Positions 5,130-50,857 of a stretch of DNA of 64,000 nt are shown piece by piece. Within the stretch, counting starts at the first letter, position 1; every line of letters begins with the position of its first letter. The position numbers and the translations under genes were made by a program. Where the stretch lies: IMG/VR virus record IMGVR_UViG_3300036466_000332, positions 82,375 through 146,374 of that record; one strand, given 5' to 3'. This DNA is from a virus. Under the pieces are notes generated by a model. The model was not told where the DNA came from. It worked only from the letters and a program-made list of their open reading frames with translations, and made no database searches.

Positions 5130-5132
5130 ATA

Positions 5133-5169
5133 AAAAGTGCGAGGGTTGATTCCCTCGCTTTTTTTTTGT
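5133..5169 (+). terminator. Rho-independent terminator after 4245 gene
   Basis: Stem GCGAGGG/CCCTCGC with loop TTGATT and a run of nine T. Confidence 0.9.
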
Positions 5170-5206
5170 TAATTTTGTGCGTTCCTAGGTAATAATACTT
5201 TCTTGG

Positions 5207-5220
5207 AACAATCATCATAG
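5207..5220 (+). promoter_or_regulatory. Late-type promoter motif P-B, unit 5250-7835
   Basis: AACAATCATCATAG, 30 nt before the first gene and directly after the terminator of the 4245 unit. Confidence 0.55.
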
Positions 5221-5249
5221 AACCTATTATTAGGAAAGGTGATGATGAA

Positions 5250-6326: not shown

Positions 6327-6337
6327 AGGAGGAAATT

Positions 6338-7018: not shown

Positions 7019-7034
7019 AAAGGAGTGTTAAAGA

Positions 7035-33134: not shown

Positions 33135-33135
33135 A

Positions 33136-33168
33136 AATAAACACGGGGTTTAAACCCCGTGTTTTTAT
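33136..33168. terminator. Bidirectional terminator 31605/33168
   Basis: Stem ACACGGGG/CCCCGTGT with loop TTTAAA between convergent virion genes. Confidence 0.9.
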
Positions 33169-34835: not shown

Positions 34836-34863
34836 ATTTAATACACCTCCAAAGTGAGTATTA

Positions 34864-34877
34864 CTAATTAAATTGTT
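34864..34877 (-). promoter_or_regulatory. Late-type promoter motif P-B, 34835 gene
   Basis: AACAATTTAATTAG on the minus strand, 29 nt before TTG 34835, after the upstream gene's terminator. Confidence 0.55.
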
Positions 34878-34899
34878 CATATATACTATGGTTACAAAA

Positions 34900-34928
34900 T
34901 AAAAATACCGGGGAATCAACCCCGGTAT
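34900..34928 (-). terminator. Terminator after 34959 gene
   Basis: Stem ATACCGGGG/CCCCGGTAT followed by T-rich sequence on the minus strand. Confidence 0.88.
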
Positions 34929-34958
34929 TGAATTATATTTATATTTTGTTATTTTGTA

Positions 34959-36197: not shown

Positions 36198-36248
36198 TGA
36201 TATAGTAACCTCCTTGTATTTTAAATTAAAAAGTTTTTATCTTCAAAT

Positions 36249-36262
36249 CTATATTATTTGTT
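36249..36262 (-). promoter_or_regulatory. Late-type promoter motif P-B, 36197 gene
   Basis: AACAAATAATATAG on the minus strand, 52 nt before the start of the abundant internal-protein candidate. Confidence 0.5.
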
Positions 36263-36285
36263 CATCGATATTACCTTACAGTAGC

Positions 36286-36299
36286 AACAATTTTAATAG
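36286..36299 (+). promoter_or_regulatory. Late-type promoter motif P-B, long operon 36345-48805
   Basis: AACAATTTTAATAG, 46 nt before the tail-fibre start. No terminator is seen until 48810, so this site probably drives all fifteen downstream genes. Confidence 0.55.
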
Positions 36300-36344
36300 T
36301 CGAATTAAATACATTAATATAATAAAAAGAGGTGAGTTTAGACT

Positions 36345-38000
36345 ATGGCTGGAAATAATAGACAAGTAGCAGTTATACCTATTAAATATAAAGATAGAGA
36401 GTTAGCATTACCAGGAGAAATTATCCTGGATAGTGATGGACGAATGTTTGCTAAATTAAATGATGGAACTGTCAAACCCATACGTGGCGAACAATTTAAT
36501 TTTATTCAAGATTTAATTAAACATAATTGGCATGTCGGTGACCAGGAATCTTTAGATTATGATATGGCAAGTTGGATTAAAACTGGAGACTATGACCCTT
36601 CTATTGATTATGAACGAGGGACAATATTAATTAAGGAATATTATTTAGAACCTGATGGTACTGAAAAGGAAAGATGGAGGGCTATAGCACCTATAACGGA
36701 GTTAAGTGGTGTAATAGTCAATGATAATACTGGGAAAACTTTAGAGGATATGATAAATGATGATCTATCTGATGGTTTTATATCTACAGATGATAAATTA
36801 GGAGATGGTGATTTACAATATGTTTCGGGGAATACATTCACTATCGTTGGTGATTGGTTAGATATATTCTTAGAAGATAGAAAACTTAAAATGCTATCAG
36901 ATGGTAATGAAGTTTTTTCTTTGATAGATCATGTGAATTATGATGGGACAGTTACGACTGTGACATTGGAGGATTCTGTTCTTGGGTCATCTATAGAGGA
37001 GGTTTTATATTCTATAATATCCCCTGGTGAAACTGGACCTATTTCGGATACCGATACATATTCTAAGATAGCTGAATATTTGGAAGCTGGAAATAATATA
37101 GATATTGATTTATCTAATGCTGATAAATTGAAAATAAGTTCTCCAACCGATACTGATGGCATAAAATCAGTTATAGGTGATTGGATTCAAGGTGGCGGTG
37201 CGACCACTGTATCCTATAATCCGACTGCCGGTACTCTTAAGATATCCAGTGTCAACACACAACGAAGTGATGGAGAAATAAATAGTTTGATAGAAAGCCA
37301 CATGAATGGACCTGTTGAGATCGGGGATAATTTAAAAGTCGGTGGCAATATAGATTTAACGGGATTTGATTTAGTTTGGGATGAACATACAGACGGTGCT
37401 AGAATCACATTCGTTAATCCGAGTGATGCAGATGAAACATATATGCTTTTTGAAACAAACGATAACAGTGATGAATATTTTAAATGGGGGCATAAAGATG
37501 TTTCTTTTGAGGAATGGATGCGTTTAGAACAAAGTGGTTTGACAGTTAATGGTGAGATTACAGGCACAAAAGTTTGGAATGCAGTGTATAATGGTGATGT
37601 CGCGGAACTTTTTGATTGTGTAGAGCATCAAGAATTTGAACCTGGTGATGTTTTGGTTTCGATGAAAGGTTTATGTTGTAAAACATCAGAGGAAAAACAC
37701 CGTGGTGTTGTGGGTGTTGTTTCAGATCCTGAATCATATGGGTATTTGCTTGGTGGTCCTGAAAGAGATTCCATTGATGACTATGGTGAAAACCAACAAC
37801 CTGTAGGGATAACAGGGCGTACTAAAGTAAAAGTTACAGGTGATATAAAAGAGCATGATCTTTTGGTCACATCTAAAAAATCTGGATACGCAACAAAGAT
37901 TAATAGTGATGAATATATGCCCGGAACTGTTTTTGCTAAAGCTTTAGAAGGTAACAATGGTGAAGACAAAAAAATTTGGGCTTTAATAATGAACGCATAA
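36345..38000 (+). CDS. Tail fibre protein with C-terminal chaperone/autoprotease-like domain
   Basis: 551 aa, AGAGGTG then ATG. The N-terminal ~120 residues begin IPIKYKDRELALPGEIILDSDG, a short virion-attachment style domain, followed by Asp/Gly/Ser-rich beta repeats (~130-330), an NGEITGTKVWNAVYNGDVAELFD junction and a C-terminal domain with EFEPGDVLVS, GVVGVVSDPES, PVGITGRTKVKVTG and PGTVFAKALE. That last block is typical of the intramolecular-chaperone/peptidase-G2-like ends of phage fibres and appendages. First gene of the long late operon that also carries the radical SAM and sugar genes; late-type motif AACAATTTTAATAG at 36286. Confidence 0.7.
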   Translation: MAGNNRQVAVIPIKYKDRELALPGEIILDSDGRMFAKLNDGTVKPIRGEQFNFIQDLIKHNWHVGDQESLDYDMASWIKTGDYDPSIDYERGTILIKEYYLEPDGTEKERWRAIAPITELSGVIVNDNTGKTLEDMINDDLSDGFISTDDKLGDGDLQYVSGNTFTIVGDWLDIFLEDRKLKMLSDGNEVFSLIDHVNYDGTVTTVTLEDSVLGSSIEEVLYSIISPGETGPISDTDTYSKIAEYLEAGNNIDIDLSNADKLKISSPTDTDGIKSVIGDWIQGGGATTVSYNPTAGTLKISSVNTQRSDGEINSLIESHMNGPVEIGDNLKVGGNIDLTGFDLVWDEHTDGARITFVNPSDADETYMLFETNDNSDEYFKWGHKDVSFEEWMRLEQSGLTVNGEITGTKVWNAVYNGDVAELFDCVEHQEFEPGDVLVSMKGLCCKTSEEKHRGVVGVVSDPESYGYLLGGPERDSIDDYGENQQPVGITGRTKVKVTGDIKEHDLLVTSKKSGYATKINSDEYMPGTVFAKALEGNNGEDKKIWALIMNA

Positions 38001-38021
38001 AATTGAAAGGGTGATGGTTTA

Positions 38022-38732
38022 ATGTTTGATCCACATTATATGCCTAGAGAAATAGTGGATAAAATGTACAATAAATATTTTATCCATAATTTCAAAATGA
38101 TGCTTAAATATGTAGATTATGATTGGGTTCATCCGATGGATGTAAAGACAAACGACCATATGGTTTCATGGGATAATGACCCGTATTTGGAAAAAACAAA
38201 AAATGAAAGAATAAAGTTAGGGTTGGATGTTTTGGAGAATGGGAACTATTGGCCATTCACAGGGGACTGGGGCATGAATGTTTCTGAAGGATGTCATAGG
38301 ATATGGTCTTTACAGGAGGTTTATAAAAACATCAAAAAATATGAAAAAAGATATTTGATGTTTAAGCATAGTTGGCAATTTTATTATGATTTTCGGAAAA
38401 TACAGCTCGACCATACAATTGAAGGTATCGATAATTTTGACGAATTATATAGCACATTCACAGAGTATGTGTATGTTCCTGATAAATGTATAGGTGAACC
38501 TTATTTAAAAAACACACTTGAAGACAAGACTGTAGATAAAATAGATTTTGGAGAATTTAACCTTTGTGTGATGGAATGTAAAAACATCTATGATATATTT
38601 TTGGCTTATATATCAATACCGGTTTTAATGAGGTATCCTTTAGCACACCAAGAGAAGATAGGTAAAAGAGTTCCTTCTTTACCACATATGAATGATGAGG
38701 GATTTTTTAGAGAATGGTACAGTAAAAGGTAG
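38022..38732 (+). CDS. ParB/sulfiredoxin-like domain protein 1
   Basis: 236 aa, AAGGGTGATGG then ATG, 22 nt after the fibre gene. ENGNYWPFTGDW...SEGCHRIWSLQEVY around residues 70-105 matches the ParB/Srx nucleotide-binding signature 'eNG...P..v...EG.HR..a'. N-terminal VDYDWVHPMDV aligns with the starts of the genes at 39845 and 40602, so the three are paralogues, with this one the most divergent (C-terminal half different). ParB/Srx folds bind and hydrolyse nucleotides or phosphorylate small substrates such as free serine. Alternation with radical SAM genes suggests one modification pathway. Confidence 0.55.
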   Translation: MFDPHYMPREIVDKMYNKYFIHNFKMMLKYVDYDWVHPMDVKTNDHMVSWDNDPYLEKTKNERIKLGLDVLENGNYWPFTGDWGMNVSEGCHRIWSLQEVYKNIKKYEKRYLMFKHSWQFYYDFRKIQLDHTIEGIDNFDELYSTFTEYVYVPDKCIGEPYLKNTLEDKTVDKIDFGEFNLCVMECKNIYDIFLAYISIPVLMRYPLAHQEKIGKRVPSLPHMNDEGFFREWYSKR

Positions 38733-38744
38733 GGGGTATATATA

Positions 38745-39848
38745 ATGGAAAAGGGAGATATTTTTTTTAATAGCTTAAATAGTGTGCAGTTGATATTGAA
38801 TAAGAAATGTAATTTTAATTGTAGCTATTGTTTTTCAGATAATGATGGTGAGGAAATGGATTCCGAATTACTGTTTTCTGATGTTTATAGATTTTTAAAA
38901 GAAAACTTATCGGATGATACAACTTTAAATTTTTTTGGTGGAGAACCAATGTTAGATTACCGAGAAAAGATAGACCCGTTAGTTTGTACTTTAAGGGATG
39001 ACGGGTTTGAAGGTGGTATAGGTATAGTTACAAATGGGAGTCTTTTCAACGAAAAAATAATGGATGAAATCATTGAGACAAATGTATCTGTTATGGTTAG
39101 TTTGGATGGTGATTATGAGACATTCTCTAAAAATAGAAATTCAGATCGTGAAGTTTTTGATGATATTATAAATAGTATAAAATATTTTGTTTCTAAAGAT
39201 TACCCGAATATCAGTGTTCGTTTAACATATGGCGAAGATGACATTGAGAATTTAACCAAAAATATTAAATTTATATATTCACTTGGGGTGGATGTGATTG
39301 AATTTTACCATGTTGATGAAATAAAACTCGATAAAAAATCAGCGGAAAAGTTAAAAGAAGAATTTGATAAATTGTTTTTCTTTTATGTGAAAAACGATGT
39401 TAAAATAAAATATATAGATGACTTGGTTCATTATTATTTAAATCCGGATGAGCATTCCAGAGGTAAATTACATCAGTGTGGATTGTTAAATAAAGATAAT
39501 TTTGATATGACAATCGATACTTCCGGTGATATTTTTACATGTCATCATTTTAATTCTGATGATAAAAAATATGATAGTTTTCATATCGGTAATATAAAGG
39601 AAACTTTCTATAAAGAAAAAATAAAGAATTTGAATTTGGGTCATTTAAAGAAAAAATATGTTTATGCACATAATGCAAGAGAAAATACCTGTTCAAAATG
39701 TAAATTGTATGATTTGTGTAATTCTATTTGTACTATGCAAAATATAAAGCAAAACAACAATATTTTTTTAAATTATAATGTCGATTGTTTTATAAAAAGG
39801 TCCTTCTATGATGTTATAGAATGGAGATTGAATGAGGTGAGACAATGA
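38745..39848 (+). CDS. Radical SAM enzyme with SPASM/twitch-type C-terminus (1)
   Basis: 367 aa, GGGGGT then ATG. The 4Fe-4S/SAM motif C22-N-F-N-C26-S-Y-C29 is followed by FFGGEPML (the GGE SAM contact), IVTNGSLF and VSLDGDYE, giving a standard SPASM-family barrel. The C-terminal part has extra Cys: HQCGLL, IFTCHHF, CSKCKLYDLCNSIC and a last CF, enough for one or two auxiliary clusters. Enzymes of this type modify peptides (RiPP maturases, sulfatase-maturases). It is flanked by ParB-like genes and lies in the same operon as the Trp-repeat protein. The family is certain; the substrate is unknown. Confidence 0.85.
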   Translation: MEKGDIFFNSLNSVQLILNKKCNFNCSYCFSDNDGEEMDSELLFSDVYRFLKENLSDDTTLNFFGGEPMLDYREKIDPLVCTLRDDGFEGGIGIVTNGSLFNEKIMDEIIETNVSVMVSLDGDYETFSKNRNSDREVFDDIINSIKYFVSKDYPNISVRLTYGEDDIENLTKNIKFIYSLGVDVIEFYHVDEIKLDKKSAEKLKEEFDKLFFFYVKNDVKIKYIDDLVHYYLNPDEHSRGKLHQCGLLNKDNFDMTIDTSGDIFTCHHFNSDDKKYDSFHIGNIKETFYKEKIKNLNLGHLKKKYVYAHNARENTCSKCKLYDLCNSICTMQNIKQNNNIFLNYNVDCFIKRSFYDVIEWRLNEVRQ

Positions 39849-40600
39849 CAGATAGGGATATTTTTGGTTGTTTGTATAAAGATTATATAGAAACCAATTT
39901 AAAAAATATTGTAAGTCACAGTTTATTCGATATAGAATTTGTGACTCCAGAAAAACTGGCATGTATGGTTGATCTACCAAATAAACCATATTTTTTTGAC
40001 GAGAATGGAAAGATAAAAAATGAGAATATTAATTTAGAGGGTATTGAGGGGTTAAATAAATCTAGAGATTTAGCTTTGGATATTCTAGAAAATGGTTTTT
40101 ATTATCCCTTGATTGTGCAAAAGGATGAGTTAGGGTATATTGGTGCTGAAGGGAGACACCGTTCCTTGGGTATTTTATCTTTATATAATAAGGGTGTTTG
40201 GCCCAGAGATAAAAGAATACCTGTTATAGTGTGTTATTTTGATTATCAGTCCCTCGTTAAGGGTGTAAAAGATGTTAGAAGTGGAAAAAAGGATTGTATA
40301 ATAGGGGAATACCCAATGAATGAAAGTCTTTTTTTGAATGCATCCACATTAGCAGATTTATTTTCAAAGAAAAATTATTTAATCAATTACGATAAAAAGA
40401 AACTTATTGATGATGAGTTAGGGATATTTCAATGCGAGATAAATGATCTCTATAGTTTTTTCATATTAAATGGTATTTATTATGGTGGTATAAGTAGAGA
40501 TATTTTGAAATATAAAAAAAGAGATAATCCTATTGAACCATCTCGTGTTATAAACAATATCCGTGATTTTTATTTATTTTTCAAAAATGGGAGTGGATGA
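39845..40600 (+). CDS. ParB/sulfiredoxin-like domain protein 2
   Basis: 251 aa, start overlaps the radical SAM stop by 4 nt. LALDILENGFYYPLIVQ...GAEGRHRSLGIL at ~75-110 is the ParB/Srx signature with the EGxHR nucleotide motif. The C-terminal domain ends FILNGIYYGGISRDILKY, nearly identical to FFINGIYYGGISNDLFLY in the next gene. FVTPEKLACMV near the N-terminus matches WMTPEEIINKL there. These are recent duplicates. A nucleotide-dependent kinase or ATPase role is inferred from the fold; DNA partition is unlikely because no HTH is present. Confidence 0.6.
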   Translation: MTDRDIFGCLYKDYIETNLKNIVSHSLFDIEFVTPEKLACMVDLPNKPYFFDENGKIKNENINLEGIEGLNKSRDLALDILENGFYYPLIVQKDELGYIGAEGRHRSLGILSLYNKGVWPRDKRIPVIVCYFDYQSLVKGVKDVRSGKKDCIIGEYPMNESLFLNASTLADLFSKKNYLINYDKKKLIDDELGIFQCEINDLYSFFILNGIYYGGISRDILKYKKRDNPIEPSRVINNIRDFYLFFKNGSG

Positions 40601-40601
40601 A

Positions 40602-41369
40602 ATGAAACATAGGGAAATAACCGAATACTTTTATAATGATTTTATTGATACAAATTTACGCAATTTAAACAACCACCCACAATTCAATATCGAATGGATG
40701 ACACCAGAAGAAATTATAAACAAACTGAATATACAGGGTGAAGAACATCATATGTTCGATGGTGATATGGATTATACTGATATACCTGGGGATCTTTTTC
40801 TCTATAACTCCTTTAATGATGCGAAAAAGTTGGGTTTGGATGTTCATAAAAATGGAATGTACAATCCCATTTTATTACAGAAGGTAGATGGTGTATATTC
40901 TAGATCCGAAGGAAGTCATCGTTTAAGAGGGATACTTCATCTTTATAAATCTGGTGTTTGGGATAAAAATAAGAAAATATGTTTTTTGGTGTGTGAATTT
41001 GGATACGAAAAAATGAGATTGGAAATTGTTGATATAAGAAAAAATATCAAAAAAACTTTAGATGATCCTGATATGTATAAGATGGACGATGTTTTAACTC
41101 TTAATGCACCTTTATATCATGGATGGGATAGTAGAACTAAACTCCTAGTCAAGTATGAAAGAAAAAAATTAACAAACGAAGAGCTTCAAATATACAGTTT
41201 TGATATAGAGAATTTTTATGACTTTTTTTTTATTAATGGTATTTATTATGGTGGTATAAGTAACGATTTATTTTTATACCATAATACAGATGAAATGATT
41301 CATCCTAGTCCAGTAGTTAATGATGAAAAATTTTTTAAAAAATATATGGGGGATGTTAAAGATGAGTAA
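40602..41369 (+). CDS. ParB/sulfiredoxin-like domain protein 3
   Basis: 255 aa; ATG 40602 follows GGGAGTGGATG, one base after the previous stop. Same architecture as its neighbour: N-terminal WMTPEEI, DVHKNGMYNPILLQ...SEGSHRLRGILHLY signature, and a C-terminal NGIYYGGIS block. It overlaps the next radical SAM gene by 8 nt. The conserved C-terminal domain outside the ParB fold probably binds the shared partner or substrate. Confidence 0.6.
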   Translation: MKHREITEYFYNDFIDTNLRNLNNHPQFNIEWMTPEEIINKLNIQGEEHHMFDGDMDYTDIPGDLFLYNSFNDAKKLGLDVHKNGMYNPILLQKVDGVYSRSEGSHRLRGILHLYKSGVWDKNKKICFLVCEFGYEKMRLEIVDIRKNIKKTLDDPDMYKMDDVLTLNAPLYHGWDSRTKLLVKYERKKLTNEELQIYSFDIENFYDFFFINGIYYGGISNDLFLYHNTDEMIHPSPVVNDEKFFKKYMGDVKDE

Positions 41370-42510
41370 CATAAAGAGAGGTTTCACTTTTGATGAATAT
41401 GAAAAAAGTATTAAAAATAGATATAATGCTTCTTTAATATTTAAGATAACTAATTATTGTCCACACAATTGTAGTTATTGTTATCATAAATATAAAAATG
41501 AAGAAGATCTTGATAAAGAAATGTCTTTGGATGTTTTTAAAGAAGCACTTTATAAACTAGGGGATAGTTTCGAAGTTATAAAATTACACTTACATGGTGG
41601 TGAGCCACTTACTGTACCATATGAAAAGTTAAAGTCTATGTTGGAGATAATAGAAGAATATAGACAAAAAAGAAATAGGGGTAAATTTATAATCACTATG
41701 GCCACTAATTTATTGCTTCTTGATGAGGAAAAATTGGAAATTCTTGAAGAACACGATGTTAAGATTTCTACCAGTTATGATGGGAAATACCATAATGAAA
41801 AAAGAGCGGTTAATCTTGAGAGAGTGAAAGAAAAAATTGATATGACCCAAGGTGTTGGGATGATAGGTGTTATGACAAAAGATTGGGTTGAGGATTTGGA
41901 TGAATCAATAGATTATGTTGAAAATAGCAAAAAAGGGAAACCCTTGGTTAATCCAGTTATGGCTTTTCCTGCAGATGATGAAGATGTTCTCGATCCAGGT
42001 GATTATTCAGATTTTGTCATTCGACGTTTTGAAAAACAAATGGAGACTGGATTGTTTAGTTGGGGGACATTAAGATATCTACAAGCGGTTCTGGGTCATT
42101 CTGGCGACTGTTTTGTTTCGGGTTGTCTTAACTCAATATTTACAGTAACACCATCAGGAAATATAAAGGGTTGTGATTCCCGTAATGAAGATTATTGGTA
42201 TTATTGTAATATATCTGATATAGAATGTGTTGAAGATATTTATGAGACTGAAAAGTATAAGAATATGCAGAGGATGTATTACAATAGATTAAAAAAATGT
42301 GAAAAAGAATGTGATGTTTTTGAGTATTGTGTTGGTGGCTGTCCTAATAATTATAGGCTTAGACCGGATGGTGAATTCAGCAAAGATTACATGTGTTATG
42401 ATTATAAACAGATGATATACTATTTTCGGGATTTTTATGAAAGCTTTGGTAGTAAAGAAGAGAATCTACCCGAAAGAATTAAGGATGTTTTGATGTTAAA
42501 AAATGATTGA
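41362..42510 (+). CDS. Radical SAM/SPASM enzyme (2)
   Basis: 382 aa; ATG 41362 has GGGGGATG upstream and lies inside the end of the previous gene. C33-x3-C37-x2-C40 in NYCPHNCSYCYH, HGGEPL for the SAM contact, MATNLLLL and STSYDGKY strands. The SPASM part is Cys-rich: CFVSGCLNSIF, IKGCDSRNE, KKCEKECDVFEYCVGGC and a final CYDYKQ, close to the canonical seven-Cys SPASM pattern with two auxiliary 4Fe-4S clusters. Such enzymes form C-C, C-O or thioether cross-links in peptides, Trp/Tyr/Asn/Arg side chains among them. This is the strongest peptide-maturase candidate of the operon. Confidence 0.87.
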   Translation: MSNIKRGFTFDEYEKSIKNRYNASLIFKITNYCPHNCSYCYHKYKNEEDLDKEMSLDVFKEALYKLGDSFEVIKLHLHGGEPLTVPYEKLKSMLEIIEEYRQKRNRGKFIITMATNLLLLDEEKLEILEEHDVKISTSYDGKYHNEKRAVNLERVKEKIDMTQGVGMIGVMTKDWVEDLDESIDYVENSKKGKPLVNPVMAFPADDEDVLDPGDYSDFVIRRFEKQMETGLFSWGTLRYLQAVLGHSGDCFVSGCLNSIFTVTPSGNIKGCDSRNEDYWYYCNISDIECVEDIYETEKYKNMQRMYYNRLKKCEKECDVFEYCVGGCPNNYRLRPDGEFSKDYMCYDYKQMIYYFRDFYESFGSKEENLPERIKDVLMLKND

Positions 42511-42530
42511 TAAAAAGGAGATGGTGGGAA

Positions 42531-43517
42531 ATGTTTAGTGTACCGTTTAATCAAACCGAGGAGGAAATAGAATTATATAGGGATAATGAAGATATTATAA
42601 AAGAAATTTATGCACCTATATCACCCAATTTTTTACACACTGCCCGACATATTGGGTGGTCAGAAAAAAATGATTATTTACTAGAGGAGCTTTTAAAAAC
42701 TAGTTCTGAAACATCCATAGGATTGAATCTCTTGATGAATTCTATAAATGACGATAAAATATTTATGATGAATGATTTAAAAGATATGTTAAACCAAGTG
42801 TATGAATATCAAAAACTTGGTTTAAAAAAAGTTACAGTTGCAAACCCTATTCTGTATCGGGCTATAGTGGAGAATTTACCCGGTATCGATATCGGTTTAT
42901 CTGTTATTGCTAATGCTGACACCATAGAAAAAATAAAGCAATTTTATGATTTTGGTAATCTAGTAGAATATTGTGTTCCACCAAAATTAACAAGAAACAG
43001 GGATTTTATAGAAAAGATAAAATCACTATTTGATGGTGTTAAAATTAAAATGATGGTTAATTGTTTTTGTAATCCAAACTGTGTTGGTTTTATACACCAT
43101 CACATTGAGGCTTCTAGTGGAAAAAAAGAAAAGGATACAGGGTATTTTAATTATGTTTGTAGCCAACATACAATAAACCCTCTTAAAAAGAATATAATTT
43201 TCCCCAATGAAATAGAGCATTATTCAGAGTATGTGGATGTTTTCAAAATATCAGGAAGAGAGACACATACCGAAACTATGTCGGAAATTTTGGATCTATA
43301 TAGAAATCCTAAAAAATTAAAGGAATATAATTTTCTTAAAGTTTTAGATGGATATAAAGCAAAGGGTGCTTACCTTTATGACATAAGTCCAAAGAATGGT
43401 CCAAGCAGAAACTTAGATTTAATAGAAAACTGTGACTATATGTGTATAGAAAATAAATGTGACCATTGTGGGGAAATGTTAGCTAAAAATTTTGAATTTA
43501 TGGAGGGTGAATTATAA
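42531..43517 (+). CDS. U32-peptidase-like Cys-rich protein
   Basis: 328 aa; ATG 42531 follows AAGGAGATGG. TIM-barrel-like: LGLKKVTVANPIL, DIGLSVIANADT and FKISGRE strands, with MVNCFCNPNCVGFIHHH matching the conserved 'N..C.p.CP.R..H' region of U32/UbiU proteins, YVCSQH, and a C-terminal CIENKCDHCGEM cluster. Related in layout to the gene at 23497. UbiU/V-type relatives hold 4Fe-4S clusters and take part in oxygen-independent hydroxylation, while others are peptidases; either chemistry could assist the radical SAM enzymes on both sides. Stop and next start share one base (TAATG). Confidence 0.6.
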   Translation: MFSVPFNQTEEEIELYRDNEDIIKEIYAPISPNFLHTARHIGWSEKNDYLLEELLKTSSETSIGLNLLMNSINDDKIFMMNDLKDMLNQVYEYQKLGLKKVTVANPILYRAIVENLPGIDIGLSVIANADTIEKIKQFYDFGNLVEYCVPPKLTRNRDFIEKIKSLFDGVKIKMMVNCFCNPNCVGFIHHHIEASSGKKEKDTGYFNYVCSQHTINPLKKNIIFPNEIEHYSEYVDVFKISGRETHTETMSEILDLYRNPKKLKEYNFLKVLDGYKAKGAYLYDISPKNGPSRNLDLIENCDYMCIENKCDHCGEMLAKNFEFMEGEL

Positions 43518-44488
43518 TGAATATTATGTTAAATAATTATTGCAATTTAAATTGTGAATATTGTTTTGTAGAGAAACAATCAGGTCCCAATGCCAGAAAT
43601 ATAACTATGGAGAATTTTGCAAAATATATCAAATTCTTAAAAAACAATGGTATTAGAGAGGCTAAGTTGTTAGGAGGTGAACCAACACTTCATCCAAAAT
43701 TTAAAGCTATAGTTAAATATTTAAATAGTGATGATTTTTTTGAGAAAATATTGATATTTACTAATGCTCTATCTCTCAATGAAGAAATGGTTGATGAAAT
43801 AATTTCACCTAAAGTTAGTTTTTTAGTGAACTATAATAAAGAGGAAGATATAGGGAAAGAAAATTTTAAAAAAACATCTGATAATATCGATTATTTGGTT
43901 GGTGAATATAATAAACACAATAGTGGACATAGAGTCACTCTCGGTATAAACATATCTGAACCTGATTTTGATTATAAATATATAGTGGATAAGAGTCAGG
44001 AGTTGGGGTTAGATAATATAAGGTATAGTTTAACTGTGCCAACTAAAATAAATGAGGATTATGTGTCAATAAAAGAATATGAGAAATTTATACCTGGTAT
44101 CTTAGAATTTTTTAAATATGCTAATAGAAGGAATATTAGATTGAGTATCGACTGCAACAATATTCCAAAGTGTTTATTTGAAAAAGAAGAATTGTTGGAA
44201 GTGATTTTGGGTAATAACGATATGTGTGAAAGAAAATATTGCACAATGCCTCTTGATATAGATATGGATCTAAATGTCACTAGATGTTTTCCTTTTAAAA
44301 ACAGATTTGAAGTGAATTTAGAGGATTTTAATGATATGGGTGAGTTAGTAGATTATTTTGGGTCTAGAATAGACAAGTATAGGTTCAATGAACCCACATT
44401 TAAAGAATGTGTTGATTGTGAACTTTTTAAAGAAAGACTATGTCAAGGTGGATGTTTGATTTATAAATTTGGTAACAACAAACTCTAA
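43517..44488 (+). CDS. Radical SAM enzyme (3)
   Basis: 323 aa, coupled to the previous gene. C9-x3-C13-x2-C16 right at the N-terminus (NNYCNLNCEYCF), LLGGEPTLHP for the SAM site, IFTNALSLNEE strand. The C-terminal part has CERKYCTMPLDID, VTRCFPF and CVDCELFKERLCQGGC, so an auxiliary-cluster domain of SPASM/twitch type. The start directly at the cluster motif, without an N-terminal peptide-recognition domain, contrasts with the other two. 12 nt before the 44501 gene. Confidence 0.85.
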   Translation: MNIMLNNYCNLNCEYCFVEKQSGPNARNITMENFAKYIKFLKNNGIREAKLLGGEPTLHPKFKAIVKYLNSDDFFEKILIFTNALSLNEEMVDEIISPKVSFLVNYNKEEDIGKENFKKTSDNIDYLVGEYNKHNSGHRVTLGINISEPDFDYKYIVDKSQELGLDNIRYSLTVPTKINEDYVSIKEYEKFIPGILEFFKYANRRNIRLSIDCNNIPKCLFEKEELLEVILGNNDMCERKYCTMPLDIDMDLNVTRCFPFKNRFEVNLEDFNDMGELVDYFGSRIDKYRFNEPTFKECVDCELFKERLCQGGCLIYKFGNNKL

Positions 44489-44500
44489 GGGGGTTTCAAA

Positions 44501-44785
44501 ATGGAAATTAAAATTAATGGAACAGATGTAGTTAGTGATATTGAATATTGGGAAATAAGTAAAGCTAGTGAGGGAAATTTATCTACAATGATTTTGAAGG
44601 CTGAATTTTCTTCTAATTTGTTTGATTTGGTGGATACAGATACAACAGAGAATATTCTTTTTGTAGAGGATGATGAAAATAAATCGGTTAAGTTTGATAT
44701 TGACAATATTAAATTTATCGGACTAAAATCTAAAGAAGGTTCAATGCAGCAACAATTTGTAGCACATGGTGTTTTAGAGAAATAA
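44501..44785 (+). CDS. Small beta-rich unknown protein
   Basis: 94 aa, AAGGGGG then ATG, between the third radical SAM gene and the Trp-repeat gene. Short hydrophobic strands alternate with acidic loops (MEIKINGTDVVSDIEYWEIS...ILFVEDDENKS), suggesting a compact beta-sandwich of the kind found in phage fibre or baseplate adaptors. No Cys and no leader-like feature. It may be a structural partner of the Trp-repeat protein, or a recognition domain for it. Confidence 0.5.
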   Translation: MEIKINGTDVVSDIEYWEISKASEGNLSTMILKAEFSSNLFDLVDTDTTENILFVEDDENKSVKFDIDNIKFIGLKSKEGSMQQQFVAHGVLEK

Positions 44786-44803
44786 TTATTGGAGGTGGGT
44801 CTT

Positions 44804-45490
44804 GTGCCGTATAAAACTTGGTCTAACAGAACCATTTGGGGTAGATCTAATTTGGTTGGATTGATAGTTAAAAAAGATGACTTACAGGAAATAGAAGACG
44901 CGATAAAAAACCATAGAGATTTTTTAGATAACTACCCTCACAATTTCAATCAACCTAATACAAATTACCCAGTTACAAAAGAAGGTAAAATTGTATACGA
45001 TACTATAGATGACATAAAAGCCGGTATAAACTCCTTCTATTACGGAAATAACCCAAACAGTGGACTCGTTTCTGATGATAAAACAGGGGACCACATCACA
45101 GCTGAAGATATATCCTCTTTAAGGGATAGAGTCAACCATATAGAGACTAACTGTGTTGCGTGTGATACCTGTCAATTTTCTACTTGGACAGCCCGATGGT
45201 CAACTCGATGGACAACCCGATGGGACAATAATTGGGGTGCTAGTTGGACAACTAAATGGACAACCCGATGGGACAATAATTGGGGTGCTAACTGGACAAC
45301 CCGATGGGATAATAATTGGACCAATAGTTGGGGTAACAGTTGGGGTGGCAGTTGGGGTTCTAGTTGGAATAACAACTGGGGTGCCAATTGGGGTACACAC
45401 TGGAATAGTCGTTGGGGTTCTAGTTGGGGTGGAAGATGGGGTAGCCGATGGGGTAGTAGTTGGTCTAGTAAATCCTCTTACTTCTCTTAA
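44804..45490 (+). CDS. Trp-repeat protein: 24 Trp at exact four-residue spacing (rSAM substrate or fibre candidate)
   Basis: 228 aa; GTG 44804 is 8 nt after GGAGGTG. Residues 1-~120 look like a virion-attachment domain (YKTWSNRTIWGRSNL...ITAEDISSLRDRVNHIE), then CVACDTC, then 24 tetrads xxxW from residue 128 to 220, with TTRW, DNNW, GANW, GSSW and GSRW as common forms, and a short SSKSSYFS end. No Trp is out of register. The N-terminal part argues for a structural phage protein. The repeat, rich in Trp with Arg/Asn/Ser/Lys neighbours and lying in an operon with three radical SAM enzymes, is what a multi-site maturase substrate would look like. No known repeat family comes to mind. Confidence 0.75.
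   Translation: MPYKTWSNRTIWGRSNLVGLIVKKDDLQEIEDAIKNHRDFLDNYPHNFNQPNTNYPVTKEGKIVYDTIDDIKAGINSFYYGNNPNSGLVSDDKTGDHITAEDISSLRDRVNHIETNCVACDTCQFSTWTARWSTRWTTRWDNNWGASWTTKWTTRWDNNWGANWTTRWDNNWTNSWGNSWGGSWGSSWNNNWGANWGTHWNSRWGSSWGGRWGSRWGSSWSSKSSYFS
45182..45463 (+). repeat. 12-bp periodic coding repeat (xxxW tetrads)
   Basis: TGG recurs every 12 nt from 45185 to 45461 without exception (24 copies). The first half contains longer near-identical blocks (ACAACCCGATGGGACAATAA repeats three times), showing recent internal duplication, while the second half is diversified. Confidence 0.95.
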
Positions 45491-45523
45491 TACCCAAAAA
45501 CAAATAATGGGGGTCGAAAATAC

Positions 45524-45883
45524 ATGAATAAGAACGATACAATATATGGATTCAAAAGACCCCCCATTTTAATAGATGGGGTGTCTATTTCTGATTATTC
45601 GAAAACCAAATATGATATTTTAAATGAAGAATTTCATATTTTTTTTTATGGACTTGACGGTACCAGTAGATTGAAAGTTTTAGAGAGGATAAATTTTTTT
45701 AATGGTATCATGGATAAAGATAATGTTGGTTTCTGTTTTAAAAATAGTGATGGGGAATCAATTGGGTATTTAAAAAACCCTAAATTACTAAGATACGGTA
45801 TATCTGGTGAGACAGTGGATAGACAAAAATTGGAAGTTGTTTTTGGTGGTAAATTAATTTACAAACTTGGGGGTGACATTTAA
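45524..45883 (+). CDS. Small unknown protein downstream of Trp-repeat gene
   Basis: 119 aa, GGGGGTC then ATG. Beta-strand pattern with RPPILIDGVSISDY, FHIFFYGLDGTSRLKVLER and a final GGKLIYKLGGDI. It may be a tail or fibre adaptor; the fold is not recognised. Stop and next start overlap by one base (TAATG), coupling it to the glycosyltransferase. Confidence 0.5.
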   Translation: MNKNDTIYGFKRPPILIDGVSISDYSKTKYDILNEEFHIFFYGLDGTSRLKVLERINFFNGIMDKDNVGFCFKNSDGESIGYLKNPKLLRYGISGETVDRQKLEVVFGGKLIYKLGGDI

Positions 45884-47022
45884 TGAAAATATGTATGATA
45901 AGTGATCCCATGGCTTCTTACCCGGAAAAGTCATACCATAGTAGTTCTATTCAATTAAACCATATGGTTGATGGTCTTTTGGAATTGGGACACGATATAG
46001 ATCTGGTTATTGGGTCTGGTGAGAATATTGATAATATAGAGGGTTTAAAGATATTTGATTATCCTAACAGATATGTCGATTTAGGGGATAAGTTAAATGA
46101 TCATAGACACCAGGCAACTAACGACTTCTTTCACAATAGGGTTATTGGTGTTCTAAGGGATAATATGGGAGAGTACGATATTATACATGTACATGATACC
46201 AATTTGTTTAATAAACTGAAATTGATTGATGATTTGAATACACCTATATTGTACACTCTACATGTTAGTATTGATTACGATGATTCTAATGAAACATATA
46301 TGTCTGCACCTTATTTGCAAGATACTGTAGACAAAACAGAAGGCAATTATTTTACTGCAATGAGTAATTTCGTTAAAGATAACTCAGTTAAGAATGCCGA
46401 TAAAATATATGTTGTTTATAATGGTATAGATTTAGATATGTTCAGTTTTGAAGAAAACAAAGAGGATTTTTTTATATTTGTGGGAAGGGTATCCGATAAG
46501 AAAGGTTTTTCCTATATATTGGATGCGTTGGATCATTATGATTTCAATATTAAGATTGCTGGACCTTTAATGTATAATAATGATAGTGACAATGATACAC
46601 TTAATGTTGATGGTAGATTGAGAAATTACAATATAGAGGAGTATTTTAACAGAAGTAATGTTGAATACCTCGGTATATTAGACCACGATCGGGTTTCAGA
46701 ATATTTGTCTAAGGCTAAAGGTTTGATTCATCTTCATGAGTGGGGTGAAGGTTTTTCTATGGCTATAGCTGAATCTTTATCGTGTGGTACACCGGTTTTA
46801 TCTACTGATCGTGGTGGACCTGGTCACTATCTTTTAGATGGATATGATTCCATAGTTTTAGAGGGTGAGACATTCAAAGACCCTATAAAGGTGGTTTCTT
46901 CTCTTAAAGATTTGGAAAATATAAAACCAGAAAATTGTAGGATTTCAGCAGAAAGATTTGATAAAAATAAATTGGGAAATCAATATGAGGAAGTTTATCG
47001 AGATATTCTAGAAAATATGTAA
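45883..47022 (+). CDS. GT4-family glycosyltransferase (GT-B fold)
   Basis: 379 aa. The N-terminal Rossmann half begins MKICMISDPMASYPEKSYHSSS and contains YDIIHVHDTNLFN. The C-terminal half has FVGRVSDKKGFSYILDAL, IKIAGPL, and HLHEWGEGFSMAIAESLSCGTPVLSTDRGG, the E(x7)E donor-binding motif of retaining GT4 enzymes. It would move a sugar from a nucleotide donor to a protein or glycan acceptor. The donor may be made by the three genes that follow. The acceptor is unknown; co-expression with a tail fibre makes a virion protein likely. Confidence 0.85.
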   Translation: MKICMISDPMASYPEKSYHSSSIQLNHMVDGLLELGHDIDLVIGSGENIDNIEGLKIFDYPNRYVDLGDKLNDHRHQATNDFFHNRVIGVLRDNMGEYDIIHVHDTNLFNKLKLIDDLNTPILYTLHVSIDYDDSNETYMSAPYLQDTVDKTEGNYFTAMSNFVKDNSVKNADKIYVVYNGIDLDMFSFEENKEDFFIFVGRVSDKKGFSYILDALDHYDFNIKIAGPLMYNNDSDNDTLNVDGRLRNYNIEEYFNRSNVEYLGILDHDRVSEYLSKAKGLIHLHEWGEGFSMAIAESLSCGTPVLSTDRGGPGHYLLDGYDSIVLEGETFKDPIKVVSSLKDLENIKPENCRISAERFDKNKLGNQYEEVYRDILENM

Positions 47023-47035
47023 GGGGATGGATAAT

Positions 47036-47686
47036 ATGGAAAAAGATATTGGTATTTTTATGCCTGGTAGACTGAAAAGTGAAAGGTTACCTAATAAACT
47101 ATTATTGGATATCGATGGTACCAATTTATGGGAGATAGCATGTAAAAAATTATCCAAATTACCAGATAAATATGGTAAATATGTTTTAGTTTATGACGAC
47201 AAATTAATCGATATTGCAAATGAATATGGGTTGAATGTTATAAAAAGAGATATTGGTACTACTGAGGCTGATGGTCCATTGACATATATTTATGGTGGGG
47301 TTTCAGAGATAGATAAAACCCATATTATGTTTCTTAACCCCTGTCTTTTATTTTTGACAGTCGAAACTATTGAAAATTCTATTGAGGAATTTTTAAATTC
47401 TGATGCAGACTATGCAACAAGTGTCAAAAAATTGGAGAATTGGATTTTTGATTCTGAGGGTGATAATTTAAATAAAATCAAATATAAATTTTTATCAACT
47501 AAAGATATCGACCCCCTTTATCAAGCCGCACATGCTTTCCATATTTTTAATAAAGAAAATTTTTTTAAAGATGGTTATATGTTAAAAAAGGGACATCAAT
47601 TGATTGAGATACCTGAAGATGAAACTATTGATGTTGATACAAGGGATGATTTTTTATATGCTAAATGGAGGTGGAGTCTTACTTGA
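47036..47686 (+). CDS. CMP-sugar synthetase-like nucleotidyltransferase (NeuA/SpsF type)
   Basis: 216 aa; ATG 47036 follows AAGGGGATGG. IGIFMPGRLKSERLPNKLLLDIDG is the CTP-binding start of the CMP-KDO/CMP-NeuAc synthetase group ('iipaR.gS.RLPgK.l..i.G'), with the usual first Arg kept. Later FLNPCLLF replaces the common 'qptsPl', and VDTRDDFLYAKW near the end matches 'vdt.eDl..a'. It probably activates the nonulosonic-type acid made by the NeuB-like gene with CTP. SpsF of spore-coat polysaccharide synthesis has the same look. Confidence 0.7.
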   Translation: MEKDIGIFMPGRLKSERLPNKLLLDIDGTNLWEIACKKLSKLPDKYGKYVLVYDDKLIDIANEYGLNVIKRDIGTTEADGPLTYIYGGVSEIDKTHIMFLNPCLLFLTVETIENSIEEFLNSDADYATSVKKLENWIFDSEGDNLNKIKYKFLSTKDIDPLYQAAHAFHIFNKENFFKDGYMLKKGHQLIEIPEDETIDVDTRDDFLYAKWRWSLT

Positions 47687-47964
47687 AATATGTTATAGAT
47701 ATTGATGGTACTATATGTACACAAGAGGATGACTATGAAGATGCCAAACCTTTAAAAGAAAATATAGAACGATTTAATAAATTGTACGACGAAGGTCATA
47801 CAGTCTGGTATTTTACAGCTAGAGGTACAGAAACTGGTATAGATTGGACCGAAACCACTAAAACACAATTTGAAAAATGGGGTGTTAAATACCATGAACT
47901 TCTATTTGGTAAACCCAGTGCTGATGTATATATAGATGATAGGTGTGAGAATATAAATAAATAA
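47683..47964 (+). CDS. Small HAD phosphatase (capsule/sugar type)
   Basis: 93 aa; TTG 47683 is 10 nt after GGAGGTG and overlaps the previous gene by 4 nt. DIDGT is the catalytic D-x-D motif, TARG motif II, KPSADVYIDDR motifs III/IV. A capless minimal HAD phosphatase of the kind found in capsule loci. Placed between the NeuA-like and NeuB-like genes, it would remove the phosphate from a sugar-acid phosphate, as NeuB-phosphate pathways require. Confidence 0.8.
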   Translation: MKYVIDIDGTICTQEDDYEDAKPLKENIERFNKLYDEGHTVWYFTARGTETGIDWTETTKTQFEKWGVKYHELLFGKPSADVYIDDRCENINK

Positions 47965-47989
47965 ATGGATGGGATGGGTGGTTATTGTG

Positions 47990-48805
47990 ATGTTTATTGG
48001 GGAGATTGGAATAAACCATAACGGTGATCTTAGAGGTTGTAAGAGACTAATAGCATCCTGTAAGGCTTCTGGTGTGGATATTGTTAAGTTTCAGAAAAGA
48101 AATCCTGATGTATGTGTCCCAGATAATAAGAAAGATATATTAAGAGAAACCCCTTGGGGGACTATGAGATATATTGATTATAAGAAAAAGATTGAATTCG
48201 GTAAGGAAGAGTTTGACGAGATAGATAAATTTTGTAACCAAATAGGAATTGAGTGGACTTCGAGTGTCTGGGATATAGATAGTTTAGAATTCATTTTAAA
48301 TTATGATGTTCCGTTTATCAAAATACCAAGTGCTATGGTCACAAATAAAAAACTATTGAGAAAGATTAAATCTTCAGATATTCCAGTTATTATGTCAACA
48401 GGAATGAGCACAAAAAAAGAAATAAAAGATGCAGTTGATATACTGTCTGGTTGTGATTTATCAATTCTACATTGTAATAGTAGTTACCCATGTGCTGATG
48501 AGGAAATAAATTTAAAAACAATACAGACACTTAAAAAGGAATTTCCAAATCATACTATTGGTTACTCTGGACACGAGAGTGGTATATTACCCAGTGTTTA
48601 TGCTAGAGCAGCTGGTGCTGATATAATAGAAAGACATGTTACTTTGGATAGAAATATGTGGGGAACAGATCAATCCTCTAGTCTTGAACCTATTCAACTA
48701 AAAAAATTGATTAATAGGTTATGGGAGCTTGATAGGATAATGGGTGACGGTAAGATTAAAGTCTATGATTCTGAAAAAGAGATTAAAGCTAAACTTAGAA
48801 AATAA
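47990..48805 (+). CDS. neuB: Sialic-acid synthase family protein (NeuB/SpsE type), no SAF domain
   Basis: 271 aa; ATG 47990 (GTG 47987 also possible). TIM barrel with EIGINHNGDL, DIVKFQKR, WDIDSLEFI, VPFIKIPSAM, VIMSTGMST, LHCNSSYPC, TIGYSGHESG, ERHVTLDR and GTDQSSSLEP, all core NeuB motifs for joining phosphoenolpyruvate to an N-acetyl-hexosamine. The C-terminal antifreeze-like (SAF) domain of ordinary NeuB (~350 aa) is missing, so substrate closure must differ or come from another protein. Last gene of the late operon, followed by a strong terminator. The product could be a nonulosonic acid on the virion or host surface. Confidence 0.85.
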   Translation: MFIGEIGINHNGDLRGCKRLIASCKASGVDIVKFQKRNPDVCVPDNKKDILRETPWGTMRYIDYKKKIEFGKEEFDEIDKFCNQIGIEWTSSVWDIDSLEFILNYDVPFIKIPSAMVTNKKLLRKIKSSDIPVIMSTGMSTKKEIKDAVDILSGCDLSILHCNSSYPCADEEINLKTIQTLKKEFPNHTIGYSGHESGILPSVYARAAGADIIERHVTLDRNMWGTDQSSSLEPIQLKKLINRLWELDRIMGDGKIKVYDSEKEIKAKLRK

Positions 48806-48809
48806 TTGT

Positions 48810-48842
48810 ATACCAGGGTTTATTCCCTGGTATTTTTTTTAT
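48810..48842 (+). terminator. Terminator of the 36345-48805 operon
   Basis: Stem ATACCAGGG/CCCTGGTAT with loop TTTATT and eight T; the first terminator after the tail-fibre promoter. Confidence 0.9.
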
Positions 48843-48850
48843 TTTTTGGT

Positions 48851-48863
48851 AACACCATTATAG
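48851..48863 (+). promoter_or_regulatory. Late-type promoter motif P-B, 48941 gene
   Basis: AACACCATTATAG, directly after the operon terminator and upstream of the early-type motif at 48880. Confidence 0.35.
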
Positions 48864-48879
48864 AGGTTTTAGGTGTTTA

Positions 48880-48895
48880 AAATTATATATTATAT
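48880..48895 (+). promoter_or_regulatory. Early-type promoter motif P-A, unit 48941
   Basis: AAATTATATATTATAT, 46 nt before the 48941 start. A late-type motif is found a little further upstream (48851), so this unit may have two promoters. Confidence 0.6.
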
Positions 48896-48940
48896 ACTTG
48901 GAATTGAAAAAAAAAAATATAGAAAAAAGGAGATGTTAAA

Positions 48941-49393
48941 ATGAAAATTTATGTGGGTAAATTTAATGAAAATGTTGATGTTGAAATGGGTTTTTTTAAT
49001 GAGAAAACGGCAGCAGAATTAACTGCTAGTTATAAGGAGGTTGATTTAGATTTATCTGATTTTAAGAAAAACAATCTAAAAGATTTTAAAAAAGAATACA
49101 GTGATTGGATGGAACACGAATTTAAACACAAAAGAGAGGAACTGGATGAGGATAAAAAAATAGTACAAACATGGTCTAATCCTGAGGAGAGAAAAGCTCA
49201 CGAAGATAAATACCCAAGTCTTAGTAAATGGGGTGTTGATGATATAGAATTAAATTCTGAGCATCTAGAGTACGTTTATATTGATCACAGTAACCATGAT
49301 GATACAGTTGTAAAAAAACACATTGAGATAAAGGACGAGATGTCTATAGATGAGCTTGTTGATGTTAGACATTTTGTGGACGATAATTTTTAA
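48941..49393 (+). CDS. Small acidic unknown protein (early-type unit)
   Basis: 150 aa, AAGGAGATG then ATG, 60 nt after the early-type motif at 48881. Starts MKIYVGKFNENVD, rich in Asp/Glu/Lys/His; ends HFVDDNF. The next gene begins in a similar way (MKVFISNLEKET) and is also acidic, so the two may be distant relatives. No motif is recognised. Small acidic early proteins of phages often bind host enzymes, but nothing here shows a target. Confidence 0.5.
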   Translation: MKIYVGKFNENVDVEMGFFNEKTAAELTASYKEVDLDLSDFKKNNLKDFKKEYSDWMEHEFKHKREELDEDKKIVQTWSNPEERKAHEDKYPSLSKWGVDDIELNSEHLEYVYIDHSNHDDTVVKKHIEIKDEMSIDELVDVRHFVDDNF

Positions 49394-49407
49394 AAAATAT
49401 TTTGATT

Positions 49408-49421
49408 AACAATATTTATGA
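49408..49421 (+). promoter_or_regulatory. Late-type promoter motif P-B variant, 49447 gene
   Basis: AACAATATTTATGA, 26 nt before the start; TGA variant. Confidence 0.3.
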
Positions 49422-49446
49422 AACCAAATAAAAAGGAGATGTTAAA

Positions 49447-49908
49447 ATGAAAGTATTTATTAGCAATTTGGAAAAAGAAACACCTCAGGTTAATTTTAAT
49501 ATGGTAGATGGTTTGGAAGATGGAGATTATAAAGAAGGTAATCTTATAATGTCAGAGATCACTAAAGAAAATGTTTTGGATATGAAACATGAATTGGGTG
49601 ACCATATTGAAGTTGTGGCAGAAGAGATGCGTATGGATAAATTACCTATAGAAAATAAAGAACCTGTTGTTATGGAGGCCAGTCTTTCAGAAGTTAATTC
49701 GAGACATATCGTTATAGAAGAGGATTGTGCTGTGGGTGTGGTTGTTGAATCTGCAACAGAAGAAAATAAAAACCATGTCGTGTATTTAGATCACGAAATT
49801 AATGATGTTCAAGAACACGATATGAACCCAGAGAGTTTTATGATTGAGGACTATGTTACAATTCGTGATACAATAAGTGAAGCTAAAAATTGGGAACCAA
49901 AAGAATAA
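49447..49908 (+). CDS. Small acidic unknown protein
   Basis: 153 aa, AAGGAGATG then ATG. Very acidic (many Glu/Asp), with VVMEASLSEVNSRHIVIEED and a C-terminal helix ending AKNWEPKE. A variant late motif AACAATATTTATGA lies 25 nt upstream, so it may be expressed both by read-through from the early unit and late. Closed by a terminator. Function unknown. Confidence 0.5.
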   Translation: MKVFISNLEKETPQVNFNMVDGLEDGDYKEGNLIMSEITKENVLDMKHELGDHIEVVAEEMRMDKLPIENKEPVVMEASLSEVNSRHIVIEEDCAVGVVVESATEENKNHVVYLDHEINDVQEHDMNPESFMIEDYVTIRDTISEAKNWEPKE

Positions 49909-49915
49909 GCAGTGT

Positions 49916-49947
49916 TTGCGGTGGTCTCTTCCACCGCAATAATTTTT
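49916..49947 (+). terminator. Terminator after 49447 gene
   Basis: Stem TTGCGGTGG/CCACCGCAA with loop TCTCTT and a TAATTTTT tail. Confidence 0.85.
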
Positions 49948-49968
49948 AAACCAAAGGGGATGGTAAAC

Positions 49969-50607
49969 ATGGGTGTCAAATTGAAAGGTTTGTCTTTAAA
50001 TATCAAAAAAGAAGATATTGATGTAGAATTAGAAATCGATGAAGTCACATTAGATTTAGGAGACTTATTCTCCTTGATAAGTGAAGATGAAATTATGAGC
50101 TTACTTGGTGATATCGATATCACTGAGGAAGGATTTGGAGAGTCACTGTCATATGATAATGAAAAGGAAAACAATAAAGAAATTAGTCTTAATAAAAAGA
50201 ATGTAATGTATGACTTAAATAATATGATGAGCGAAACATCTAAGAGTAAAAACCCAAAAGGTTTATTACCTATTGATCAATATTTTGAATCTAGTTTTGA
50301 TTATTGTGTTTGGTTTGTGGATGATGAAAGTTTTCTTTCAAATTCTTTCATAAATGCTGATAGTAATACACCTGTTGACTTTTTTGTTGGTGTCCACTTT
50401 AAAGATTATAATGGAAAAACTGCAATGGGTTTTGAAACTCAATTTGCATTTGAAAATTTTATGGGTGATGTACAACGTAAATTTGAAAAACACTTACCAT
50501 CAAATAATGTCCAAATAGGTGTGATGATGGAACCACTGACACAGATTAGAAAGAAAGCTGGAGATAATGTTTTTGGTGAATTAAAATACACAAACACTCA
50601 GATTTAA
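49969..50607 (+). CDS. Unknown protein
   Basis: 212 aa; ATG 49969 follows AAGGGGATGG, after the terminator hairpin. The acidic N-terminal part (EDIDVELEIDEVTLDLGDLF) repeats short beta segments; the C-terminal part is mixed (DYCVWFVDDESF...DFFVGVHFKDYNG...FMGDVQRKFEKHL). No known motif. Followed by the zinc-ribbon gene with 16 nt spacing. Confidence 0.5.
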   Translation: MGVKLKGLSLNIKKEDIDVELEIDEVTLDLGDLFSLISEDEIMSLLGDIDITEEGFGESLSYDNEKENNKEISLNKKNVMYDLNNMMSETSKSKNPKGLLPIDQYFESSFDYCVWFVDDESFLSNSFINADSNTPVDFFVGVHFKDYNGKTAMGFETQFAFENFMGDVQRKFEKHLPSNNVQIGVMMEPLTQIRKKAGDNVFGELKYTNTQI

Positions 50608-50623
50608 AAGAAGGGAGAATAAA

Positions 50624-50857
50624 ATGCTTGATGATTTAAAAGAGAAGTTTGAGAAAGTCAAGAAAGAAGAGCATTATAAAAAAATGAAAGAGGAAAATCC
50701 CAATGGAACATATGTGTATATTGATAGATCTGGGAATAATGAAAGATCTGGGAATAATGAAAGATATGTGTGTATGGAATGTGGAGGGGAAATGTCTTTT
50801 AATGTGTATGGTGTTATACAATGTAATGATTGTGATTCTTTAGGTGTTAATATGTGA
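50624..50857 (+). CDS. Small zinc-ribbon protein
   Basis: 77 aa, AAGGGAG then ATG. Lys/Glu-rich helix (1-25), then a duplicated RSGNNE hexapeptide encoded by two perfect 18-bp repeats, then CMECGG...(14 residues)...CNDC, a complete four-Cys zinc ribbon. Small ribbons like this bind nucleic acid or polymerase. Ends at a bidirectional terminator. Confidence 0.65.
   Translation: MLDDLKEKFEKVKKEEHYKKMKEENPNGTYVYIDRSGNNERSGNNERYVCMECGGEMSFNVYGVIQCNDCDSLGVNM
50726..50761 (+). repeat. Two perfect 18-bp tandem repeats
   Basis: AGATCTGGGAATAATGAA occurs twice in direct succession inside the zinc-ribbon gene, duplicating six residues (RSGNNE) in frame. Confidence 0.95.

Follow-up and report, generated by a model that had tools for sequence, protein, structure and literature searches.

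A phage protein with tryptophan at every fourth residue beside three radical-SAM genes: a possible tryptophan counterpart of phage cysteine-tetrad proteins

Why would a phage keep tryptophan at every fourth residue, 24 times in succession, and could the radical-SAM genes that stand just before this gene act on its product? The gene encoding the Trp-tetrad protein (44804..45490, plus strand) lies in a window of 64,000 nucleotides that spans bases 82375-146374 of a virus contig 146,374 bases long, and specifies 228 aa from a GTG start behind GGAGGTGGG. An original prediction, made from this DNA by itself, proposed that the protein is a candidate radical-SAM substrate with an N-terminal virion-attachment domain. 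This raises the potential that the tryptophans are cross-linked by the phage's own enzymes. Alternatively, the repeat could serve as an unmodified binding surface, could be a scaffold for glycosylation, or could be a by-product of repetitive DNA.

The tryptophan repeat and its reading frame

Translation of the gene confirmed the periodicity that had been claimed. Of the 26 tryptophans in the protein, 24 lie at an exact spacing of four residues from W128 (45185) to W220 (45461) with zero breaks, so that the repeat comprises 24 WXXX tetrads (45185..45472, plus strand) with a DNA period of 12 nt. The flanking residues, earlier described as mostly Thr, Arg, Asn, Asp, Gly and Ser, are drawn exclusively from G, S, T, N, R, A, D, K and H, and the tetrads are heterogeneous (17 of 24 distinct). 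The block duplications reported at the DNA level correspond to a four-copy 48-nt repeat family.

A repeat with this structure might be nothing more than a 12-nt slippage product or a misread frame, in which the tryptophans have no special function. The block duplications and an open overlapping frame fit such an origin, as does the observation that most Trp-tetrad matches elsewhere, among those listed, are pure 12-mer repeats. However, roughly half of the non-Trp bases differ among the 24 DNA blocks, and at least 45 substitutions separate these blocks while none falls in TGG, an outcome with a probability of 0.75^45 = 2.4e-6 under neutrality. Given that TGG was spared in at least 45 substitutions, the tryptophans are under selection and are not a fresh product of 12-nt slippage. 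The repeat is also kept in a second contig, which is 99.5% identical across 16.4 kb and whose two amino-acid changes in the Trp gene both fall beside a tryptophan and none on one; a third contig (194,604 bases) is identical at the Trp gene. Since 17 of 24 tetrads are distinct while TGG is unchanged (P about 2e-6), and since the repeat is in frame with a nonrepetitive domain, we rejected a slippage artefact and consider this whole family of readings very improbable.

The choice of frame can be addressed in the same way. The T of TGG is invariant in all 24 tetrads, even though it would be a wobble base if the open +1 frame that overlaps it (45153-45527) were translated; in addition, the Trp frame is continuous with the N-terminal domain, with no stop between them. 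On these two grounds, the Trp frame is likely the coding frame. Over the repeat, the +1 frame is open for 124 aa and has Gly at every fourth residue, a pattern that is probably a by-product of the TGG period.

We found the Trp-tetrad protein in one phage species, represented by the three contigs. Searches of Pfam, PHROG, NCBIfam and PDB sequences, along with tblastn against phages, returned no match, and 42 related jumbo-phage records and 30 records of phages with CXXX (Cys-tetrad) proteins held no relative outside its own species; there was one weak match, with an E value of 0.005 and a stop inside it. Among the matches listed by five DNA-pattern scans of viral and genome contigs, none was a further Trp-tetrad protein with heterogeneous tetrads like these; they were either pure 12-mer repeats, most of which lie out of frame, or Ala-rich WDAA helices. 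The counter-case to a link with radical-SAM maturation, the same repeat in phages that have no radical-SAM genes, was likewise absent among the matches listed. AlphaFold gave no reliable model of the whole protein (pLDDT 37).

A lineage-specific island with radical-SAM and sugar genes

The phage, at 31% G+C, encodes a viral RNA polymerase. Among named phages, those closest to it are the Fusobacterium jumbo phages JD-Fnp1/4/6/7, with terminases 38-40% identical and genomes largely colinear with its own. It is a jumbo phage and distant kin of the JD-Fnp phages. In contrast to this colinearity, JD-Fnp1 has no match to window positions 31605-50857, which include the Trp gene and the enzymes, and the Trp gene therefore lies in a lineage-specific island.

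All of the island genes described here are on the plus strand, and the first encodes a tail-fibre-like protein (36345..38000; phrog_19567, E 2.7e-9), whose end resembles, by eye, the chaperone-like end of tail fibres adjoining Cys-tetrad genes in phage loci L603 and L627. Three ParB-like paralogues follow, interleaved with three radical-SAM genes and a peptidase U32-family gene (42507..43517; PF01136, 4.7e-7). The first ParB-like protein (38022..38732) was recognized from its motif by eye and is a distant paralogue of the other two (39845..40600 and 40563..41369), which are 36% paralogues of each other; the last of these, the sole paralogue searched, had no match in named phages. Between the third radical-SAM gene and the Trp gene is a gene for a 94-aa protein with no assigned function (44501..44785), and directly after the Trp gene comes one for a 119-aa protein, also with no assigned function (45524..45883). 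A GT4-type glycosyltransferase (45883..47022) and a nonulosonic-acid-type set of PseF/NeuA-like cytidylyltransferase, HAD phosphatase and NeuB-like synthase (47027..48805) complete the order.

The three radical-SAM genes that the original prediction placed near the Trp gene do precede it on the same strand (38745-44488). Two of the enzymes have SPASM-like C-terminal Cys motifs: that at 38745..39848 has PapB as its best NCBIfam match (134.5 bits, cut-off 340) and scores 56.5 against TIGR04115 (cut-off 350), while that at 41320..42510 has TIGR04083 as its best (83.9 bits, cut-off 300) and scores 74.3 against DynA (cut-off 450). The third is shorter and nearest to the Trp gene (43517..44488). All three fall below every NCBIfam maturase cut-off, with DynA, XyeB, GrrM and YhhB scores far below, and in a tree they lie outside the clade of enzymes associated with Cys repeats (CXXX), on long branches. 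We therefore rejected their assignment to TIGR04115 or PapB on the basis of both score and placement. PapB, a ranthipeptide maturase, acts on recurring copies of a single motif, forming six rings in freyrasin, and its likeness to the system described here lies in a repeated substrate motif; however, it links Cys to Asp, and the repeat contains no Cys.

Relatives of the enzyme at 41320 occur in Burkholderia and Sinorhizobium jumbo phages (FLC6, L507, 7992-9056; Phosso, L510, 7977-9038). FLC6 and Phosso each have two further radical-SAM genes, near virion or oxidoreductase genes, and no tetrad protein within 17 kb.

The composition of the island suggests another job for these enzymes. An unmodified rod of Trp, Arg, Ser and Asn might bind host surface sugars, peptidoglycan or membrane, with the radical-SAM genes belonging to a sugar cassette (U32, glycosyltransferase, NeuA/NeuB-like) that alters host or virion glycans. 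Sugar genes do lie in the same gene run, tryptophan is a common sugar- and membrane-contact residue, the repeat is cationic (11 R/K/H versus 3 D), and none of the enzymes reaches the cut-off of a maturase family. Binding, however, needs no unbroken exact period of four, and the pairing of Cys-tetrad proteins with radical SAM recurs across many phages. We regard an unmodified binding rod as a serious candidate, although an unlikely one.

The sugar genes could also act on the protein itself. If the Thr/Ser/Asn-rich tetrads were glycosylated with a nonulosonic-acid-type sugar by the GT4 enzyme two genes downstream, then Trp would be a mere spacer between sites. Consistent with this, glycosyltransferase and NeuA/NeuB-like genes lie downstream of the Trp gene, and relatives of the GT4 gene, accompanied by collagen-like fibres, occur near the Cys-tetrad genes of loci L685 and L666. 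Yet several tetrads are poor in hydroxyls (GAN, GGR) while Trp is invariant, and glycosylation of the repeat strikes us as improbable. C-mannosylation, which has the motif WxxW, was rejected on the WxxxW spacing of the repeat.

Cysteine-tetrad proteins beside phage radical-SAM genes

A comparative lead came from a test for fixed-spacing residues in ORFs around other phage radical-SAM genes. Immediately before its two radical-SAM genes, Cronobacter phage CR5 encodes two proteins in which every fourth residue is Cys, and both proteins score above the TIGR04114 cut-off. The arrangement recurs in Salmonella phage SPN3US and in five jumbo phages of Erwinia: as in CR5, Cys-tetrad proteins with 20-23 Cys are encoded next to a virion gene and just ahead of a pair of radical-SAM genes. 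The order in SPN3US, Wellington, Phobos, Derbicus, Huxley and Asesino starts with the gene for a virion structural protein, continues with two or three genes of the tetrad type and one of ~300 aa, and ends with the two radical-SAM genes. The N-terminal part is present in 61 phage records. Three unrelated phages (L603, L627 and L529) share the order of tail gene, Cys-tetrad protein, hypothetical protein and radical-SAM gene, and the L529 enzyme passes TIGR04115 (434 bits, cut-off 350).

Scanning viral contigs with a profile for TIGR04115-like enzymes identified 58 phage loci. A heterogeneous Cys-tetrad protein was present in 32/36 of the loci of at least 9 kb versus 0/62 control terminase loci, a co-occurrence to be expected in part, since CXXX targets define TIGR04115. 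In the literature searched, we found no description of TIGR04115/CXXX pairs placed beside phage tail genes, and papers on Trp-rich repeats with phage radical SAM, on CXXX repeats and on SPN3US radical SAM yielded no modified virion repeats.

In the existing annotations, the Cys-tetrad proteins of CR5, SPN3US and the Erwinia jumbo phages (L508, L621-L626) are labelled hypothetical, are overlooked, or give way to genes called on the wrong strand; CR5_157, Phobos_167/168 and Huxley_176/177, for example, are antisense annotations over Cys-tetrad genes. At L685, the radical-SAM gene of the Cys-tetrad locus (4804-7146) has an apparent intein inside its CxxxCxxC cluster motif.

How closely does the Trp-tetrad protein resemble these proteins? 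Phage CXXX proteins (targets of TIGR04114, with TIGR04115 as maturase; PHROG 6085, function unassigned) share with it a helical N-terminus, a Cys motif and a long heterogeneous run of polar tetrads, and both kinds lie beside radical-SAM genes and tail or virion genes. They differ in that the Trp-tetrad protein has Trp rather than Cys, with Arg, Lys or His at the third position, and in that its locus has enzymes other than TIGR04115, three radical-SAM genes, and U32 and ParB-like genes. The protein has no match to NCBIfam TIGR04114; Trp stands where Cys would.

The N-terminal region (residues 1-116; 44804..45151, plus strand) has three predicted helices, and its helix motifs GLIVKKDDLQEIEDAIKN, GKIVYDTIDDIKAGINSF and GDHITAEDISSLRDRVNHIE are similar to N-terminal motifs of the phage Cys-tetrad proteins. 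An AlphaFold model of this region, aligned with the CXXX rows, placed helices at residues 24-43, 65-80 and 100-116 with low confidence (mean pLDDT 58) and had no PDB match. Motif TGDHITAEDISSLRDRVNHIETN gave z scores of 4.6-5.1 against N-terminal motifs of L646, L685 and Huxley, the best of ~30 comparisons, and a Cys-tetrad family profile ranked the protein third or fourth among all ORFs of its phage and JD-Fnp1, at a nonsignificant E of 2.3 or 0.8. The proposed role in virion attachment thus gains a motif resemblance to phage Cys-tetrad proteins but no family match. The CVACDTC motif, reported earlier to follow the N-terminal domain, is at residues 117-123 (45152..45172, plus strand), the site where the Cys tetrads begin in phage CXXX proteins.

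By this analogy, the protein looks like a Trp analogue of the phage Cys-tetrad proteins. Since its layout is the same as that of phage proteins with Cys in the same places, it may be a Trp version of an enzymatically cross-linked viral fibre, and the Cys-tetrad phages appear to strengthen the link to a maturase.

A possible chain of tryptophan cross-links

A cross-linked repeat would need partner residues at a suitable distance from each Trp. All 11 of the Arg, Lys and His residues of the repeat (11/11) occupy the third tetrad position, i+3 from Trp, and this position holds R, S, N, K or H only, all of which have a beta-CH2. Gly, Ala, Thr and Asp are confined to the other two positions, with none at the third, and Gly occurs twice at i+2. 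The Trp(i) ring of dynobactin is bonded through its C6 to C-beta of Asn(i+3), and in triceptides the enzymes connect Trp with C-beta of an Arg, Asn or Asp that lies at i+2 (PMC11002830). The W-x-x-[R/S/N/K/H] spacing equals the Trp(i)-Asn(i+3) spacing of dynobactin. Given these precedents and the beta-CH2 residues at i+3, a bond from each Trp to the third residue of its own tetrad is chemically plausible, although the third-position pattern could instead form a binding surface.

Dynobactin and the triceptides (3-CyFE) are RiPPs in which a radical-SAM enzyme bonds a Trp ring to C-beta of an Asn or Arg a short, fixed distance away, and the repeat has partner residues so spaced. They are, however, short secreted peptides with one or few rings, whereas the protein described here has 24 potential rings and is probably a virion protein.

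We propose that the product of the Trp gene would belong to the tail or fibre region of the virion, where its N-terminal helical part would dock it in the particle while the 24 C-terminal Trp tetrads extend as a rod. It would act as the phage CXXX proteins do, with Trp replacing Cys. At least one of the three adjacent radical-SAM enzymes would work down the repeat, linking a ring carbon of each Trp to C-beta of a polar residue close by, with the third residue of the same tetrad as the likeliest partner. The resulting rings, up to 24 of them, would make a stiff, protease-resistant fibre that may serve adsorption or stability.

The earlier suggestion of a radical-SAM substrate therefore stands in part, favored by the three upstream genes, the recurring Cys-tetrad/radical-SAM layout in unrelated phages and the dynobactin spacing. 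Counting against maturation are the sub-cut-off enzymes outside the CXXX clade, the N-terminal E values of 0.8-2.3, the occurrence of the protein in a single phage species, and the operon's sugar genes as alternative partners. We put the proposal as a whole, a virion Trp-tetrad rod cross-linked by adjacent radical-SAM enzymes as an analogue of the Cys-tetrad proteins, at somewhat below an even chance. Its most specific form, in which the fibre rod consists of as many as 24 Trp cyclophanes in succession, formed by the phage's own radical-SAM enzymes, and is the Trp counterpart of an undescribed and widespread class of radical-SAM-modified Cys-tetrad proteins in phage tails, we consider conceivable but doubtful.

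If the proposal is true, phages extend RiPP-type radical chemistry from small secreted peptides to large virion proteins, and at least one natural protein rod is cross-linked by multiple rings. PHROG 6085 would gain a biochemical role, and the enzymes could be put to use in producing stiff, cross-linked peptide materials. Because culturable laboratory phages such as SPN3US and CR5 have the Cys-tetrad/radical-SAM layout, mass spectrometry of their virions offers a direct test of the idea.
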